This document shows positions 15,839 to 24,422 of a stretch of 24,509 nt of DNA, piece after piece. Below the pieces are notes generated by a model. The model was given only the letters and a program-made list of their open reading frames with translations. It searched no databases and was not told where the DNA came from. How positions within the stretch are numbered: position 1 is the first letter of the stretch; every line of letters starts with the position of its first letter. A program made the translations under genes and the position numbers. Source of the DNA: a virus; IMG/VR virus record IMGVR_UViG_3300044613_001962, positions 1 to 24,509 of that record; one strand, written 5' to 3'.

Positions 15839-16704
15839 TGGCTATCGTCTCATCGCGTGAGTTGTTTCGCGAGAACAAGTTTCGCTTCGGCGAGTCGCGC
15901 GACCTCACTCGACGCTTCGTAATCACGCACGACGGGACGCAGCCGACCGGCAACGACCTTGTCGCCGAGCTCAACATCGACCTCGGCCACATTCACCCCG
16001 AGTACACGAACAACTACTGCATCGAGGTCGAGTACCGCGAGGGCTACGAGGACTCGCAGTATCACGGCGAGTTCATCGCGCGATACGGCACGACAGACCC
16101 GGACAATCTCAACCAGCCGACGCTACGTGCGCCGAAGTGGACGTTCACGACGCAGGGCAGCACGATCCCGGCGTTTCGCTACTTCGCAGGCGATGGCAAC
16201 GCGACGCTGCTGCCGCTGACAAACAGCGCTTTTGATTTCTTCGAGGGGCTGACCGGCGATGAGGCACAGTGCAAAGTCACGATCCAGCAGAACGTCGCGA
16301 CCTTCCCGAGTGCTCTGGCGATCGCGCTGACGAACTGCATCAACTCGACGGCGTGGATTGGTGGAGCCAAACACTGCTGGAAGTGCCAGGGCATCAGCGC
16401 AGAACTTAAGTTCGAAAACTGGGGCAACGCGCTGTACCGATTTTGGGACACGTCTGTCGAGTTGCTGTTTCGTCAGACAGGCTGGCCGCTGCAAATACCA
16501 GACGTGGGGTTCAACTTCATCTTGAATAGCCAGAAGCGTCGCGCGATGGTCTTCGATTTTGAAAACGCGGAATGGGTCGCGTCGCCCGGTCCTGTCGGGC
16601 TTGACGGAAACGGCGGACTGACGCTCGGTGCTCCGGCGATCCTCACGCGTCGCGTGCATCCCGAGGTGGATTTCAATTCTTACTTCGGGTCGCCTCCGGC
16701 GTGA
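15838..16704 (+). CDS. tail protein downstream of tape measure, possible distal tail
   Basis: This 288-residue protein starts at ATG 15838, overlapping the tape measure stop. Its place right after the tape measure is that of the distal tail protein or tail-tip adaptor. It is rich in aromatic residues (Trp, Phe, Tyr) and has mixed alpha/beta patterns with segments such as NYCIEVEYREGYEDSQYHGEFIARYGT and PALRAPKW-like stretches, and a Cys pair in KHCWKCQG (Cys-x-x-Cys with a nearby His). I do not recognise a named family, so the function is from position only. Four bases separate its stop from the next start. Confidence 0.68.
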   Translation: MAIVSSRELFRENKFRFGESRDLTRRFVITHDGTQPTGNDLVAELNIDLGHIHPEYTNNYCIEVEYREGYEDSQYHGEFIARYGTTDPDNLNQPTLRAPKWTFTTQGSTIPAFRYFAGDGNATLLPLTNSAFDFFEGLTGDEAQCKVTIQQNVATFPSALAIALTNCINSTAWIGGAKHCWKCQGISAELKFENWGNALYRFWDTSVELLFRQTGWPLQIPDVGFNFILNSQKRRAMVFDFENAEWVASPGPVGLDGNGGLTLGAPAILTRRVHPEVDFNSYFGSPPA

Positions 16705-20706: not shown

Positions 20707-20795
20707 CCCCGGAATCCCCTGTTTTCGTGGGCAAAACCGCCCTCGAAAAAAATCTTTGCAGGGGGCTTGTCCACTTGTCCGATACCGGCTATAGT
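20707..20795 (+). repeat. regulatory repeat copy A (upstream of the 20838 gene)
   Basis: This stretch aligns without gaps over its first 70 bases to 23760-23847. Shared blocks are CCCCGGA, GTTTTC, AAAAC, AAAATCTTT with CAG, CTTG and the operator CCGATA(C/T)CGG. An inverted repeat GTTTT-7 bases-AAAAC lies at 20721-20737. Copies A and B are direct repeats 3 kb apart, on either side of the integrase. The preceding 20653-20706 shows no gene. Confidence 0.75.
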
Positions 20796-20802
20796 TTGGG
20801 CG
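20767..20802 (+). promoter_or_regulatory. promoter 1 with operator in the spacer
   Basis: A -35 TTGTCC (20767-20772) and -10 TATAGT (20790-20795) are 17 bases apart. The spacer contains CCGATACCGG (20779-20788), an imperfect palindrome. A GTG lies six bases after the -10, at the expected transcription start (20802), in frame with the gene at 20838 that has its own ribosome binding site. A protein bound at the operator would block RNA polymerase. Confidence 0.78.
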
Positions 20803-20837
20803 TGACGGGACGAGACACCAACAAGAAAGGGACAACG

Positions 20838-21113
20838 ATGACGGCGACTAAGACCAACTGGAGCAAGGGTGACCGGGTTCAGATCACGACGACGACCGCT
20901 GGTCCCGAGCTGCTGGAGATCGTCGGGTTCCGCCGTCGCCCGAGCGGCACGCAGTACGTCGTACTGGCGGACGCTGCGACCGCGACACGTATTCGGGCCG
21001 GCGAGTGCAATCCGCGGGTGGTCGTGCTGACCGGCATCGGCGGTCGGGTGCGCGAGGTCGAGACCCAGTGGTTCCACCGCCTTGCGGCGCGCGGCCTTGT
21101 GGTCGCCGCCTGA
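20838..21113 (+). CDS. small protein under promoter 1, unknown function
   Basis: This 91-residue protein starts at ATG 20838 after GAAAGGGAC. The first part (TNWSKGDRVQITTTTAGPELLEIVGFRRRPSGTQYVVLAD) reads as small beta-barrel strands with a Gly-Asp turn, like an SH3- or KOW-type fold; the second half has IRAGECNPRVVVLTGIGGRVREVE, then an Ala-rich helix. No family is recognised. An in-frame GTG at 20802 could add 12 residues if the mRNA is read without leader; the ribosome binding site favours 20838. A GC hairpin follows the stop. Confidence 0.68.
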   Translation: MTATKTNWSKGDRVQITTTTAGPELLEIVGFRRRPSGTQYVVLADAATATRIRAGECNPRVVVLTGIGGRVREVETQWFHRLAARGLVVAA

Positions 21114-21124
21114 CCGACACCAAC

Positions 21125-21150
21125 GCCCGGCGGCAACTTCGCCGCCGGGC
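21125..21150 (+). repeat. intergenic hairpin, copy 1
   Basis: GCCCGGCGGC (21125-21134) and its exact complement (21141-21150) form a perfect ten-base stem with loop AACTTC, 12 bases after a TGA. No T-tract follows, so a simple terminator is unlikely; mRNA stabilisation, processing or attenuation are options. Copies 2 and 3 are at 21530 and 24213. Confidence 0.8.
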
Positions 21151-21178
21151 TCACCACGAGAGAGAAAGGGACCGAGCG

Positions 21179-21517
21179 ATGACGACGACGAACACGACCG
21201 ACGCCTACTGGATCGACGGCTCCGCATACTGCCGCGGCTGCGTGGAGTGCCGCACGCCTGCGATCGACGCAGCTGATGCTACTCGCGGGCCAGCTGGCGA
21301 CGCACGCTGCCCATGCTGCGGAGGGCGCGCCGATGCTGGAGAGCCCGAGTACCGCATCGCGTTCGTCCGCGAGAGCGGCAACTGGGACATCGTCGAGACG
21401 TTTCACGCGGCGGACCACGACGCGGCCAACGCCTACGCTGAAGAGCGGTACGCGGACCACGATTGGTACGTGATCGACCACACAGGCCGCAACATCAACG
21501 GCGGCGTGGACGGCTGA
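21179..21517 (+). CDS. small Cys-rich protein with zinc-ribbon-like N-terminus
   Basis: This 112-residue protein begins at ATG 21179 after GAAAGGGACC. It has a Cys-rich first half: CRGCVEC (about residues 19-25) and CPCCGG (about 48-53), giving four or five Cys for a zinc knuckle. The second half has strand and helix patterns (YRIAFVRESGNWDIVETFHAADHDAANAYAEERY) and ends WYVIDHTGRNINGG. No family is recognised; nucleic-acid or protein binding is a guess from the Cys pattern. It lies between two copies of the hairpin and belongs to the same transcript as the gene at 20838. Confidence 0.7.
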   Translation: MTTTNTTDAYWIDGSAYCRGCVECRTPAIDAADATRGPAGDARCPCCGGRADAGEPEYRIAFVRESGNWDIVETFHAADHDAANAYAEERYADHDWYVIDHTGRNINGGVDG

Positions 21518-21529
21518 CCGACACCAACC

Positions 21530-21553
21530 CCCGGCGGCAATCCCGCCGCCGGG
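21530..21553 (+). repeat. intergenic hairpin, copy 2
   Basis: CCCGGCGGC (21530-21538) pairs with GCCGCCGGG (21545-21553), nine bases with loop AATCCC, placed 12 bases after a TGA. The stop and lead TGACCGACACCAAC is shared with copy 1. A strong ribosome binding site (GGAGG) for the next gene follows. Confidence 0.8.
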
Positions 21554-21575
21554 TCACGCACTGGAGGGACGAACG

Positions 21576-21992
21576 ATGGCAACGCGATCCGAGAAACAGA
21601 GGGCCGAAAGAGTCTCGCGGCTGCGGGCCAAACTGCATGGCGTCGAGGCGGCTCTTGCCGCCGTTCGCAAGCAGGTGGCAGCAGAACTTGAGCGTATCGA
21701 AAGGCTTGTCGCTAGCGTGAGTACGGCGGCGGTTCAAGAAGAGAGAACGACGATGCAGCACCTTGCGATGTCTGTGCCTTTCGATGAGTTCGTTGGAAGC
21801 CTGACTCTTCGAGCCAGGAAAACGCTAGAAAAGTGCGGAGTCACAGACTCGGGCGGCTTAGCAACGCTGTCGATGTGCAGGCTCTTGGAGGTTCCAAACT
21901 GCGGTCGCGGCACCGCCCTGCGAATCGCGAACCTGCTCGAGGAGCAGTACGGGGTGACGCTGCCAGAACTAGAGTGGGAGTCGCTCCCATGA
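21576..21992 (+). CDS. RNA polymerase alpha-CTD-like protein with coiled-coil N-terminus
   Basis: Residues about 1-60 form a charged coiled coil (RVSRLRAKLHGVEAALAAV). Residues about 66-128 resemble the C-terminal domain of RNA polymerase alpha, the helix-hairpin-helix unit that binds UP elements and activators: SLTLRARKTLEKCGVTDSGG (compare the family's L-x-x-R-x-x-x-x-L-x-x-x-G-I), LATLSMCRLLEVPNCGRGTALRIANLLEE. The family's usual Asn-Phe-Gly in the hairpin is Asn-Cys-Gly here. It could alter promoter choice by host polymerase, or just bind DNA. ATG 21576 follows GGAGGG; an internal ATG at 21753 also has a purine-rich lead. It overlaps the next gene as ATGA. Confidence 0.68.
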   Translation: MATRSEKQRAERVSRLRAKLHGVEAALAAVRKQVAAELERIERLVASVSTAAVQEERTTMQHLAMSVPFDEFVGSLTLRARKTLEKCGVTDSGGLATLSMCRLLEVPNCGRGTALRIANLLEEQYGVTLPELEWESLP

Positions 21993-22198
21993 AGAAACGC
22001 CCCTCCACCCACGCCGCCATCCTCTCCGTCACCGACGCCGCCCGGCTCGCTGGCGTCACCGACCGCCACATGCGTCGCCTCATCGCCGACGGTGTGATCG
22101 CGGCGACACGCGTGGGCCGGGCGTGGCTCGTCGATCGGGCCAGCGTCGCGGCGTGGCAGCGGCATCCGACGATGGGCAGGCCGGCGGGCACGCCTTGA
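21989..22198 (+). CDS. excisionase-like helix-turn-helix protein
   Basis: This 69-residue protein has the MerR/excisionase-type winged HTH: LSVTDAARLAGVTDRHMRRLIADGVIAATRVGRAWLVDRASVAAWQR. The helix (TDAARLAGVTDRHMRRLI), turn and wing strand (ATRVGRAWLV) match the family used in excisionases and small regulators. It overlaps the alpha-CTD-like gene (ATGA) and ends nine bases before the convergent integrase stop, which suits an Xis (recombination directionality factor) role, but a transcription regulator is also possible. Confidence 0.82.
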   Translation: MKKRPSTHAAILSVTDAARLAGVTDRHMRRLIADGVIAATRVGRAWLVDRASVAAWQRHPTMGRPAGTP

Positions 22199-22207
22199 CC
22201 AGCAGCG

Positions 22208-23329
22208 TCAGGGCACCTGCCCTGCCATCCAGCCCTCGATGATCGCCGCCGAGAACGCAGGCACGTCCTCCTCGCCGATGCCGGCAGCCGCCGCCAGGGC
22301 CTCGTGCTGGGCCCGTGGCGGGCATCCAAGCCCACGGGTGGCGAGCGACGCACCGACGCGGCGGCCGGCTTCTGCGGGGCTGGTGGGGGCCGTGGTGGCG
22401 GTCGGCTTCGGCTTCTGCTTCCTCCGCTCGCTGGGCAGTGCCGGGAGCAGGTCGAGCGGGTCATCGCCGCCCACGATCGCGGCGTCGAGGTAGTGCTGCC
22501 GCGTAGTGCTCGGGTCACTGTGCGACAGGAACTCGGTCGCGTCTCCGCCAGCCGCCGCGACGAAACTGCCGCTCGCCTTGCGGATGGCATGAAACCCGTG
22601 GGCGGACACGCCCGCACATCGCCCGAGGACGCGAAGCGATTGCCACAGCGAGCCTTTCGCGCGGTGCTCGTCCCACGGCCACACCAAGTCGTCATCCTGC
22701 CTGCGGTGCTGAGCCAACATCGCGGCGAGCTCGGGCGTGATCGACCGCGAGATGGTTTTCGTGCCGCCTTTTCGCGTGGAGCCATCGAACGTCACACGGC
22801 GGGCGTCGAGATCCACATCGCGCCACCGGAGGGCGAGCAACCCGCCAATCCGCTCGGCTGTCTGCCACGCCGCCTGGAGTAGAGTCTCCCACAGCCACCA
22901 CGCCGGGACCGGGCCGACGTTGCCCTTCCTGCCTCTGGCCGCTTTGACGAGGGCGTCGATCTCCTCGAGCCGGTAGCCCTTGGGTGGTCGCAGCGACACC
23001 TTGACCAGCCCACGCGGCAGGTCGGGGTGCTCGATCAGCACGCCATCGCTGCGGTTCATCCGCTTCTTCGCGGCGTGTGTCCACAACGCCGACAGGTGCG
23101 CCAAGTCTTTTTTGACGGTGGCCGGCCGCGGCAGCTTGTCACGCCAGTGCCGGTCGGTGGCCCGCCACTGGCTGAACCTCGCGAGCGTCAGGTCGTCAAA
23201 ATCGTCAATCGTCGCCGGCCGCTGGAGGAACGTTTCGAAGCGGTCGATGGTCGTGGAGAACAGCCCGATGGTCCGTGCCTTCAAGGCATGGCGGGCGGCA
23301 TACACCGACAGGAGATCACGAAGAGTCAT
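22208..23329 (-). CDS. int: tyrosine site-specific integrase
   Basis: This 373-residue enzyme integrates and excises the phage. N-terminal SAM-like DNA-binding helices (about 1-110) precede the catalytic domain with Arg160 in AERIGG, a Lys in the beta hairpin KGGTK (187 or 191), His247 and Arg250 in HAIR, His270 in LSHSDP and the nucleophile Tyr280 in RQHYLDA. These form the R-K-H-R-H-Y set, so it should be active. About 85 residues follow Tyr280, with a Pro/Lys linker and an Ala-rich C-terminal domain, longer than in most integrases. It is the only clear minus-strand gene, convergent with the HTH gene. GAGGTGA precedes its ATG. An attachment site should lie nearby but was not identified. Confidence 0.93.
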   Translation of the reverse strand: MTLRDLLSVYAARHALKARTIGLFSTTIDRFETFLQRPATIDDFDDLTLARFSQWRATDRHWRDKLPRPATVKKDLAHLSALWTHAAKKRMNRSDGVLIEHPDLPRGLVKVSLRPPKGYRLEEIDALVKAARGRKGNVGPVPAWWLWETLLQAAWQTAERIGGLLALRWRDVDLDARRVTFDGSTRKGGTKTISRSITPELAAMLAQHRRQDDDLVWPWDEHRAKGSLWQSLRVLGRCAGVSAHGFHAIRKASGSFVAAAGGDATEFLSHSDPSTTRQHYLDAAIVGGDDPLDLLPALPSERRKQKPKPTATTAPTSPAEAGRRVGASLATRGLGCPPRAQHEALAAAAGIGEEDVPAFSAAIIEGWMAGQVP

Positions 23330-23355
23330 CGCTCACCTCGCAACTGGTAGGGACT

Positions 23356-23361
23356 AGTATA
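23356..23361 (-). promoter_or_regulatory. possible -10 box of the integrase promoter
   Basis: On the minus strand, TATACT reads from 23361 to 23356, giving a start point near 23349 and a leader of about 20 bases to the ATG at 23329. The -35 region is poor (ACAAAG at 17-base spacing), so an activator may be needed. None of the CCGATA operator copies is found here. Confidence 0.4.
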
Positions 23362-23412
23362 CAGGCTTCCACCTAAACCTTTGTCCCCCATGCCCTCCGC
23401 TGATACTTAGGC

Positions 23413-23438
23413 CCGTAGGACTGGAAACAACCCTACGG
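23413..23438. repeat. inverted repeat between integrase and HTH gene
   Basis: CCGTAGG (23413-23419) and CCTACGG (23432-23438) are exact complements separated by 12 bases. In the divergent integrase intergenic region this could be an integrase core site, a regulator site or a weak hairpin; the sequence does not decide. Confidence 0.45.
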
Positions 23439-23469
23439 CGAGTTGGGCTTGACAGGCAAGCGGCTCGGT

Positions 23470-23503
23470 TTGACGCCATTTCCCATATCGGTAGTATGGG
23501 GGC
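23470..23503 (+). promoter_or_regulatory. promoter 3, likely giving a leaderless mRNA
   Basis: A -35 TTGACG (23470-23475) and -10 TAGTAT (23492-23497) are separated by 16 bases that hold CCCATATCGGT, a degenerate operator. Six bases follow to ATG 23504, so transcription would start at the start codon. GGGCATGGCG matches the corresponding stretch of promoters 1 and 2 (GGGC, purine-TG, then a purine and CG). Confidence 0.7.
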
Positions 23504-23773
23504 ATGGCGATGGCGTTGAAGGAACCGGGGCGGACGTTGTGCTCCTGTCGTGAGGCGGCACGGGTGCTCGGCTGCACGATGGGCCGCGTGCGGCAGATGT
23601 GCCGCGAGCCAGAGGGCGGTGGCGCGCCGACGCTCTGGTCGGCCAAAATCAACGAGCGATCCCTCGTGCTCGACCTGGATCAGGTGAAGCGGCTTGCTGC
23701 CGCTCGCCAAAAGGCCCGCGACGCCGGCACTCAGCCCGGCCCCCCGCCCGGCGGATTCTCCCCGGATTCCTAG
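23504..23773 (+). CDS. HTH DNA-binding protein, candidate autoregulated phage regulator
   Basis: This 89-residue protein has an excisionase/MerR-like HTH: SCREAARVLGCTMGRVRQMCREPEGG, then strands around SAKINERSLVLDLDQVKRLAA, and a disordered, Pro/Gly-rich C-terminus. Its ATG (23504; a second ATG at 23510 is in frame) lies six bases after a -10 box with no ribosome binding site, as expected of a leaderless mRNA, which in lambda is how cI is made from PRM. The operator-like sequence in its promoter suggests self-control. It ends inside the regulatory repeat copy B. A cI-like or Xis-like role is inference. Confidence 0.75.
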   Translation: MAMALKEPGRTLCSCREAARVLGCTMGRVRQMCREPEGGGAPTLWSAKINERSLVLDLDQVKRLAAARQKARDAGTQPGPPPGGFSPDS

Positions 23774-23847
23774 GTTTTCCCCGCGAAAACACGGGTCCAA
23801 GAAAATCTTTTCAGACCCCTTGAACAACCTACCGATATCGGTACACT
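23760..23847 (+). repeat. regulatory repeat copy B (upstream of the 23903 gene)
   Basis: Paralogue of 20707-20795. It includes the inverted repeat GTTTTC-CCCGC-GAAAAC (23774-23790), GAAAATCTTTTC, and promoter 2 with its operator. It overlaps the last codons of the HTH gene. The two copies diverge mostly between the shared blocks, suggesting selection on the blocks. Confidence 0.75.
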
Positions 23848-23853
23848 ACGGGC
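23820..23853 (+). promoter_or_regulatory. promoter 2 with perfect palindromic operator
   Basis: A -35 TTGAAC (23820-23825) and -10 TACACT (23842-23847) are 16 bases apart. TACCGATATCGGTA (23830-23843) is a perfect 14-base palindrome within the spacer and touching the -10. ATG at 23854 lies six bases after the -10; it opens an unrelated frame, so here the sequence is probably conserved as initially transcribed DNA. A GCGGC-5 bases-GCCGC hairpin (23859-23873) follows in the leader. Confidence 0.82.
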
Positions 23854-23902
23854 ATGACGCGGCACGGGGCCGCGAGACACCACGAACGAAAGGGACGAAA
23901 CG

Positions 23903-24202
23903 ATGAAGACCTCGACCAAGACCGCCGCCGCCAACTTCGCCGCCGCCGCTCGCAACTCTGGCTGGACGATCAGCACTCGCGACAACGTGGTCACGATCAC
24001 CAAGAACTTCACACCCAACAGCCGCGAGGAGTTCGTGCAGCTGGATGGCGAGTACTACGGCATCCTGTCGCTCGTCAAGGCTCGCGGCGGGAGCATGTGG
24101 GGCACCGACGGCTCTGGTGTCGGCGGCTACTCGGCAATGCTTCACGGCGTGTTCACGATGAACGTCAGCGGCGTCAGCCCGGCTTTCATCGCCGCCCTCT
24201 GA
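23903..24202 (+). CDS. small protein under promoter 2, unknown function
   Basis: This 99-residue protein starts at ATG 23903 after GAAAGGGAC, the same ribosome binding block as the genes at 20838 and 21179. The N-terminus is a helix (STKTAAANFAAAARNSGWTI), followed by strands (NVVTITKNF), then a Gly-rich middle YYGILSLVKARGGSMWGTDGSGVGGYSAMLHG and a C-terminus VFTMNVSGVSPAFIAAL. The Trp-Gly-Thr-Asp-Gly and the MN(V/K)SG ending remind me of small proteins in actinobacteriophages, but I cannot name a family. A hairpin follows the stop. Confidence 0.72.
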   Translation: MKTSTKTAAANFAAAARNSGWTISTRDNVVTITKNFTPNSREEFVQLDGEYYGILSLVKARGGSMWGTDGSGVGGYSAMLHGVFTMNVSGVSPAFIAAL

Positions 24203-24212
24203 CCATCACCCC

Positions 24213-24238
24213 GCCCGGCGGCACCTTCGCCGCCGGGC
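24213..24238 (+). repeat. intergenic hairpin, copy 3
   Basis: GCCCGGCGGC (24213-24222) pairs exactly with 24229-24238, loop ACCTTC, 11 bases after a TGA. Lead TGACCATCACC is close to that of copies 1 and 2. No T-tract follows; an AAGGAGG ribosome binding site for a tiny gene does. Confidence 0.8.
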
Positions 24239-24267
24239 TCATCACCACGGGCAAGGAGGCCCACGCC

Positions 24268-24339
24268 ATGAGCGCCACGCAAATCCTCGAGCTAGTCGTC
24301 GTCGTGCTGCGGATCGTGTCCGCATTCCTCGACCGTTGA
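24268..24339 (+). CDS. 23-residue hydrophobic peptide
   Basis: ATG 24268 follows a strong AAGGAGG (24253-24259) with eight-base spacing, directly after hairpin copy 3. The 23 residues contain a run of Ile, Leu and four Val (ILELVVVVLRIV) with a single Arg near the centre, ending AFLDR. It could be a small membrane-associated or amphipathic peptide. Because the ribosome binding site is excellent and the frame is closed by TGA at 24337-24339, I list it. Function is unknown. Confidence 0.55.
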   Translation: MSATQILELVVVVLRIVSAFLDR

Positions 24340-24364
24340 CCGAATCTACCGATACCGCTAGCAG
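24336..24364 (+). promoter_or_regulatory. promoter 4 candidate with operator, weaker
   Basis: TTGACC (24336-24341) and TAGCAG (24359-24364) are 17 bases apart; TACCGATACCGCTA (24347-24360) differs from the perfect operator at two positions. No GGGC-RTG element follows. It may be a weak promoter or an extra operator before promoter 5. Confidence 0.55.
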
Positions 24365-24394: not shown

Positions 24395-24422
24395 TTGACC
24401 TGGAACTGGACAGACGTACATT
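24395..24422 (+). promoter_or_regulatory. promoter 5 of the right-edge gene
   Basis: TTGACC (24395-24400) and TACATT (24417-24422) are 16 bases apart, with a start expected near 24429 and a leader of about 24 bases that contains AAGGAG before ATG 24453. No operator palindrome lies inside this one. Confidence 0.65.

Follow-up and report, generated by a model that had tools for sequence, protein, structure and literature searches.

Closest described systems

Apl of phage 186 and Cox of phage P2 are small excisionase-like winged helix-turn-helix (wHTH) proteins, encoded beside the integrase gene (int) or the genetic switch, that repress phage promoters; Apl binds cooperatively to direct repeats one helix turn apart, both at the attachment (att) site and between pR and pL (PMC7498355). 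RdfS of ICEMlSym is a wHTH excisionase that also represses its own promoter and acts on excision and conjugation, with no short palindromic operator described in that report (PMC11963761), and the wHTH protein BldC binds direct repeats, according to the title of a reference cited there. Among phage repressors of other types, lambda CI is autoregulated, has an operator overlapping the early promoter and forms with its operators an exchangeable specificity module, and Rep of cluster A mycobacteriophages binds as a monomer to 13–14 base pair (bp) sites without dyad symmetry, 20–30 per genome (PMC6550527). Here, we analyze a viral contig of 24,509 bases (IMG/VR record IMGVR_UViG_3300044613_001962, positions 1 to 24,509; hereafter, the window), in which related 14-bp sites, one of them a perfect palindrome, occupy promoters, and in which a wHTH gene at 23504–23773, divergent from int, probably encodes the autorepressor that acts on them.

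The locus resembles each of these systems in part. As in Apl and Cox, a small excisionase-like wHTH protein is encoded beside int and is predicted to repress phage promoters, whereas the sites, judged from sequence, appear as single 14-bp units, palindromic in many classes, that lie inside promoter spacers without the direct-repeat arrangement, and none was found near att, as far as the int–wHTH intergenic region of the window was scanned at up to 3 mismatches. Repression of its own promoter, as by RdfS, and the autoregulation of CI are likewise predicted features of the wHTH protein, which further shares with CI the overlap of operator and early promoter and the exchangeable module of specificity. 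Unlike CI, the proteins of the window and its relatives are wHTHs of 74–105 amino acids, lack the HTH_3 (XRE) domain of CI-type repressors and the S24 domain that often accompanies it, and have own and early promoters that point in the same direction. Similarly to the cluster A Rep/stoperator system, the specificity of the repressor diverges in step with its sites, a Cro analogue is not known, and extra sites lie away from the main promoter; the sites here nevertheless number 3–5 (1–5 places per record in scans of seven relatives), are often palindromic, and cluster at promoters, a pattern different from that of stoperators. The MerR family and BldC have the wHTH fold in common with this protein, and MerR sites also lie in promoter spacers, but the spacers here are of normal length and the proteins carry no coiled-coil or effector domain, in contrast to MerR activators.

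Operator copies in the window

A search with the perfect palindrome TACCGATATCGGTA at up to 2 mismatches recovered 3 copies in the window, compared with 0.017 expected from dinucleotide shuffles, none of them inside a gene, as had been anticipated for a promoter-associated motif. At up to 3 mismatches there were 4 copies (0.25 expected), the additional one inside a gene, at 16435. The core CCGATATCGG at up to 1 mismatch yielded 3 matches versus 0.83 expected, and the relaxed pattern TACCGAYRTCGGTA with 3 mismatches yielded 5 versus 1.75, which is too noisy to be used alone. A fourth, weaker copy lies in the 20767 promoter; counted with it, three copies reside within the 16–17 bp spacers of promoters, at 20767, 23470, and 23820 (Table 1).

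The first-pass annotation had described a fourth promoter, at 24336, with a version of the spacer palindrome seen in the other three. All four sites are positioned as claimed, and the copy at 23830–23843 is indeed perfectly palindromic, but the cassette site at 20779, within the 20767 promoter, is not significant alone, and the 24336 element (TTGACC-17-TAGCAG) is at best a weak promoter: its −10 hexamer at 24359 is poor, and its −35 hexamer overlaps the TGA of a 23-codon open reading frame (ORF). A consensus promoter scan recovers 20767, 23470, and, at 24395, a promoter without an operator, but neither 24336 nor 23820 (hexamers 8/12). The copy at 24347, which we denote O3, follows a stop codon and is paired with this poor −10, and its likely role is therefore that of an auxiliary operator and not of an operator within a promoter. 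The cassette site gains weight because the corresponding promoters of two related loci, L006 and L011, carry a spacer copy, TTCCGATGACGGTA.

Operators match the wHTH class

An integrase search identified 19 related viral loci (numbered with the prefix L) and an integrase alignment 80, and a search with the window wHTH alone added one more; all related genomes are uncultured contigs. Where int was flanked by 500 bases or more, a profile built from seven members detected a divergent wHTH ORF in all such loci but one, the sole exception, L028, having a longer ORF of the L076 kind, as judged by eye. In agreement with the expectation of conservation, the motif is kept in homologous promoters of relatives, with a perfect or near-perfect palindrome recurring in L009, L010, and L011.

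For 50 non-redundant wHTHs, own and early promoters were chosen by −35/−10 score alone, blind to the operator, a rule under which 5 of the 50 had no own promoter. Spacers are mostly 16–17 bp, with a few early ones of 18 bp, and the own and early promoters share an operator whose end usually coincides with the first TA of the −10 hexamer. Operators match within a phage and differ between wHTH classes, as illustrated by the window class (TACCGAYRTCGGTA), L054 and L077 (TACCGATACCGGTA and TACCGATAGCGGTA), L041 and L096 (TAACGCCGACGCTA), L074 (own site, TAACGCAAGCGTTA), L062 (TAACGATAACGCTA), L072 and L092 (GTACGATACCGTAC and GTACGCTACCGTAC), L024 (GTAGTTTCGATA), and, by eye, L028 (TCGACAGACCTGTCGA, with the own promoter differing by one base). 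When own- and early-promoter spacers were compared, with hexamers excluded and both strands allowed, same-phage pairs scored 5.9 and pairs across wHTH clusters 4.3 (13–15 clusters; p = 5e-5, which is the permutation floor), and the 30 bases 5′ of the promoters, taken as a control, gave p = 0.5–0.8. With only 4 clusters (40% identity cut), the values were 0.04 and 0.9 for the control.

The operators track the wHTH and not the integrase backbone. The integrases of L027 and L030 are 95% identical, whereas their wHTHs are 28% identical and their operators differ; conversely, L030 and L034 have identical wHTHs and integrases that are 74% identical. The window integrase is closest to that of L024 (80%), and its wHTH to those of L030, L034, L036, L037, and L038 (75%). 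Across clusters, similarity between operators correlates with that of the recognition helix (r 0.19, p 0.017), a modest effect, and not with that of the remaining protein (r 0.02). Operators over the early and own promoters thus change together with the putative repressor, as befits an immunity repressor, and whole sets of protein and binding sites seem to be traded between phages as a mosaic heteroimmunity module.

Additional operators and graded sites

Past the early promoter, 26 loci contain a total of 15 further copies of the operator proper to each phage (up to 2 mismatches), compared with 0.63 expected from operators of other classes. Several of these downstream copies resemble O3 in lying directly behind the stop codon of a short ORF, and L054 and L077 each have two such sites, 30 bp apart. 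Seven whole related records contain 1–5 operator places each at the same threshold. Very short hydrophobic ORFs (approximately 23 codons, e.g., MSATQILELVVVVLRIVSAFLDR) recur 5′ of O3-like sites in relatives. In L044, a perfect 16-bp palindrome, CTACCCATATGGGTAG, is found 3′ of the wHTH gene, just 5′ of a short ORF without a recognizable −35, and related half-sites, TACCCAT, lie farther downstream.

The suggestion that graded matches to the palindrome set different affinities receives indirect support: in 31 of the 45 loci compared, palindromic symmetry is higher in the early operator than in the own operator, and in 7 it is lower, a comparison that scores symmetry rather than affinity and in which the loci are not independent. 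The share of sites in which at least 6 of the 7 pairs match is 31% for early operators, 7% for own operators, and 0.7% for shuffled spacers. Such grading would fit a repressor that turns off the early promoter before it begins to limit its own synthesis.

The wHTH protein family

On its own, the window protein has weak family matches only (Rv2175c wHTH, 0.013; PHROG 66, 0.043). Within a 30-member family, HTH_17 matches 19 members, as does PHROG 66, annotated as “excisionase and transcriptional regulator” (19/30), and MerR-like families match some. Compared with solved structures, the family profile retrieves Pukovnik Xis (4e-5), the “putative DNA-binding protein” 6ama (0.03), which we take to be BldC, and Cox (0.07). 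The predicted model (predicted local distance difference test score of 80) is a wHTH with a C-terminal helix, and its best structural match is again Pukovnik Xis, with a non-significant E-value. Family sequence and predicted fold together place the protein in the excisionase/HTH_17-like wHTH superfamily, and the divergent wHTH genes of relatives encode proteins with an excisionase/MerR-like fold. In the window and most relatives, roughly 6–7 bases separate the −10 from the ATG of the wHTH gene (23492–23506), and the mRNA is therefore probably leaderless.

Proposed mechanism and alternatives

A single phage regulator controlling several units and its own gene, as proposed in the first-pass annotation, is the best reading of these data, and the relatives single out the 23504 protein; the 21989 protein, put forward as the other candidate, is a second excisionase-like wHTH that looks like a target of the regulator instead. 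We infer that the wHTH binds as a pair, probably with one subunit per half-site. Because the site spans the spacer and reaches into the beginning of the −10, bound protein would exclude RNA polymerase, a mode of action that 16–17 bp spacers fit. The early promoter, with its perfect site, and the cassette promoter would be kept off, the weaker site in the own promoter would limit wHTH synthesis, and O3, which lies about 0.5 kb farther downstream than the early operator, may add to repression or serve as a roadblock. In a prophage, the wHTH would be the maintenance repressor in place of CI, and we lean moderately toward its being the lysogeny (immunity) repressor.

The main rival, which overlaps with the autorepressor reading, is a dual role like that of Apl or Cox, in which the protein would, in lytic growth, dampen both the early promoter and its own and would direct excision, with lysogeny kept by other means. 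The excisionase-like fold and families, the position of the gene next to int, and the double function of Apl and RdfS as excisionases and regulators (PMC7498355, PMC11963761) speak for this role, but many of the sites are palindromes and not direct repeats spaced by one helix turn, the int–wHTH interval of the window has no copy at up to 3 mismatches, and a separate excisionase-like gene is present at 21989. Moreover, no second repressor of the CI type was found, HTH_3 and Peptidase_S24 being absent from 17 related records of 27–49 kb (the positive control, HTH_17, was detected in 13 of the 17), although these records are fragments in which another repressor could be missed. We regard the dual role as possible, if rather unlikely. 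The fragmentary state of the records is one of several points that weigh against the autorepressor reading: the nearest characterized relatives are excisionases that bind direct repeats (PMC7498355) and not single palindromes, the L024 and L027 classes have poorly palindromic sites, clusters L066, L073, and L078 contribute nothing to the covariation test, and the cassette site lacks significance by itself.

Were the sites those of another regulator, host LexA-like or phage-encoded elsewhere, the wHTH would merely be its target. Binding by the wHTH is itself a prediction and the records are incomplete, which leaves room for this explanation; however, phages with nearly identical integrases differ in the motif, which tracks the wHTH, as the site of a host regulator would not, and no other conserved regulator emerged when HTH_3, S24, and HTH_17 were looked for. 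We rejected a host LexA-like protein on account of this change between closely related phages and find the explanation as a whole very improbable. Activation in the manner of MerR, whereby the protein would bend the spacer and turn the early promoter on, draws on the location of the site between −35 and −10 and on the MerR-like matches of some family members. MerR activators act on 19–20 bp spacers, and here no realignment is needed because spacers are mostly 16–17 bp with recognizable hexamers; the small size of the proteins also leaves no effector-binding domain. Activation was rejected on spacer length, and we consider it very improbable. Finally, chance or the recurrence of common promoter sequence with no role in regulation could account for the cassette site taken singly, but this is scarcely credible given the enrichment, conservation, and class matching, and the lack of a copy in both the 24395 promoter and the int promoter region.

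Gene content and neighboring features

Table 1. Coordinates of genes, promoters, and putative operators in the window.
Feature	Position	Strand	Basis
Cassette promoter, TTGTCC-17-TATAGT	20767–20795	+	Sequence; consensus promoter scan
Operator core in cassette promoter spacer, CCGATACCGG	20779–20788		Equivalents in L006 and L011 cassettes
Cassette operon under the 20767 promoter (20838, 21179, 21576, 21989)	20838–22198	+	ORFs; between packaging-side genes and int
Second wHTH gene, last of cassette, candidate excisionase	21989–22198	+	PHROG excisionase/recombination directionality factor, E ~2e-6
Tyrosine integrase gene	22208–23329	−	Pfam Phage_integrase 1.3e-8; PHROG integrase 4e-27; divergent from wHTH gene
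wHTH gene promoter (own promoter), TTGACG-16-TAGTAT	23470–23497	+	Consensus promoter scan; homologous promoters of relatives keep 16–17 bp spacers
Own operator, TTCCCATATCGGTA	23480–23493		2 mismatches to palindrome; one strong and one weak half-site
wHTH gene, 89 amino acids, proposed autorepressor	23504–23773	+	Divergent from int in nearly all related loci; HTH_17/excisionase-like family; predicted fold
Early promoter, TTGAAC-16-TACACT	23820–23847	+	Relatives at same place: TTGCAC-16-TACAAT, TTGACG-17-TAATAT, and similar
Early operator, perfect 14-bp palindrome, TACCGATATCGGTA	23830–23843		Conserved in L009, L010, L011, L030, L037, L038
Early unit gene 1, 99 amino acids	23903–24202	+	No family match; L009 homologue 75%
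23-codon hydrophobic ORF	24268–24339	+	Stop overlaps TTGACC at 24336; read directly from sequence
O3, probable auxiliary operator after stop of 23-codon ORF, TACCGATACCGCTA	24347–24360		Class-specific operators recur there in relatives

The contig encodes terminase, portal, and HK97-type capsid genes, and small early genes come after the wHTH ORF. Alignment of the integrase against 84,980 genomes retrieved distant integrases only (best 26%), and among cultured phages integrases were at most 28% identical (Pseudomonas phages), with no real wHTH match. A planctomycete host, our first guess, was unsupported, with no int match at 1e-20 in 392 Planctomycetota genomes. In L012, L013, and related loci, a sequence resembling the 3′ end of a transfer RNA or transfer-messenger RNA, GGTTCGACTCCCCTCGCCTCCACT, lies between int and the wHTH gene; it is a candidate attP core and could reveal the host.

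The early transcript (23848–23905 and the leaders of relatives) opens with a short hairpin, the stem of which varies on both sides between phages (GCGAG/CTCGC, GCGGG/CCCGC, GTCAGG/CCTGAC) and the loop of which often reads like AATGAGA. Compensatory changes affect 4 of the 6 predicted pairs, albeit with little covariation energy. The stop codons of three small genes are each followed by a nearly identical GC-rich hairpin, CCCGGCGGC-loop-GCCGCCGGG (21121–21152, 21527–21553, 24208–24240); these hairpins are without T tails, and relatives have CCCGYCGGC versions.

The cassette is present in the window, L006, and L011 and absent from L004, L007, L008, L009, L010, and L022. In L006 and L011 it occupies the same place, with an operator in its promoter and, at its end, a wHTH gene similar to that of the window. 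Promoter, first small gene, and terminal wHTH are alike in L006 and L011, whereas the methyltransferase-like genes in between (identified by eye) differ: the cassette middle is swapped. The cassette may be expressed only on derepression. Its 21576–21992 product weakly matches the C-terminal domain of the RNA polymerase alpha subunit (E 0.011) and is possibly a helix-hairpin-helix DNA-binding protein.

Implications for phage immunity

We found no description of this module in the open-licence literature. Tentatively, and with less than even confidence, we propose that it represents an undescribed form of temperate-phage immunity, in which a bare 74–105 amino acid wHTH of the excisionase fold, without a separate dimerization or SOS-cleavage domain, would act on operators in 16-bp spacers, with about a dozen specificity classes exchanged as cassettes among phage backbones, and may also be the excisionase. 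If the wHTH has the latter function as well, immunity would be tied directly to excision. The approximately 50 non-redundant wHTHs and their promoters constitute a natural library of protein/DNA-site pairs, with which a recognition code for this fold can be tested and from which small orthogonal repressors could be drawn. If the proposal is true, an excisionase/MerR-like wHTH fold would serve as the main lysogeny switch in a large group of uncultured phages, without CI and with a very small repressor, and the module would show how heteroimmunity evolves in phages that have never been grown.

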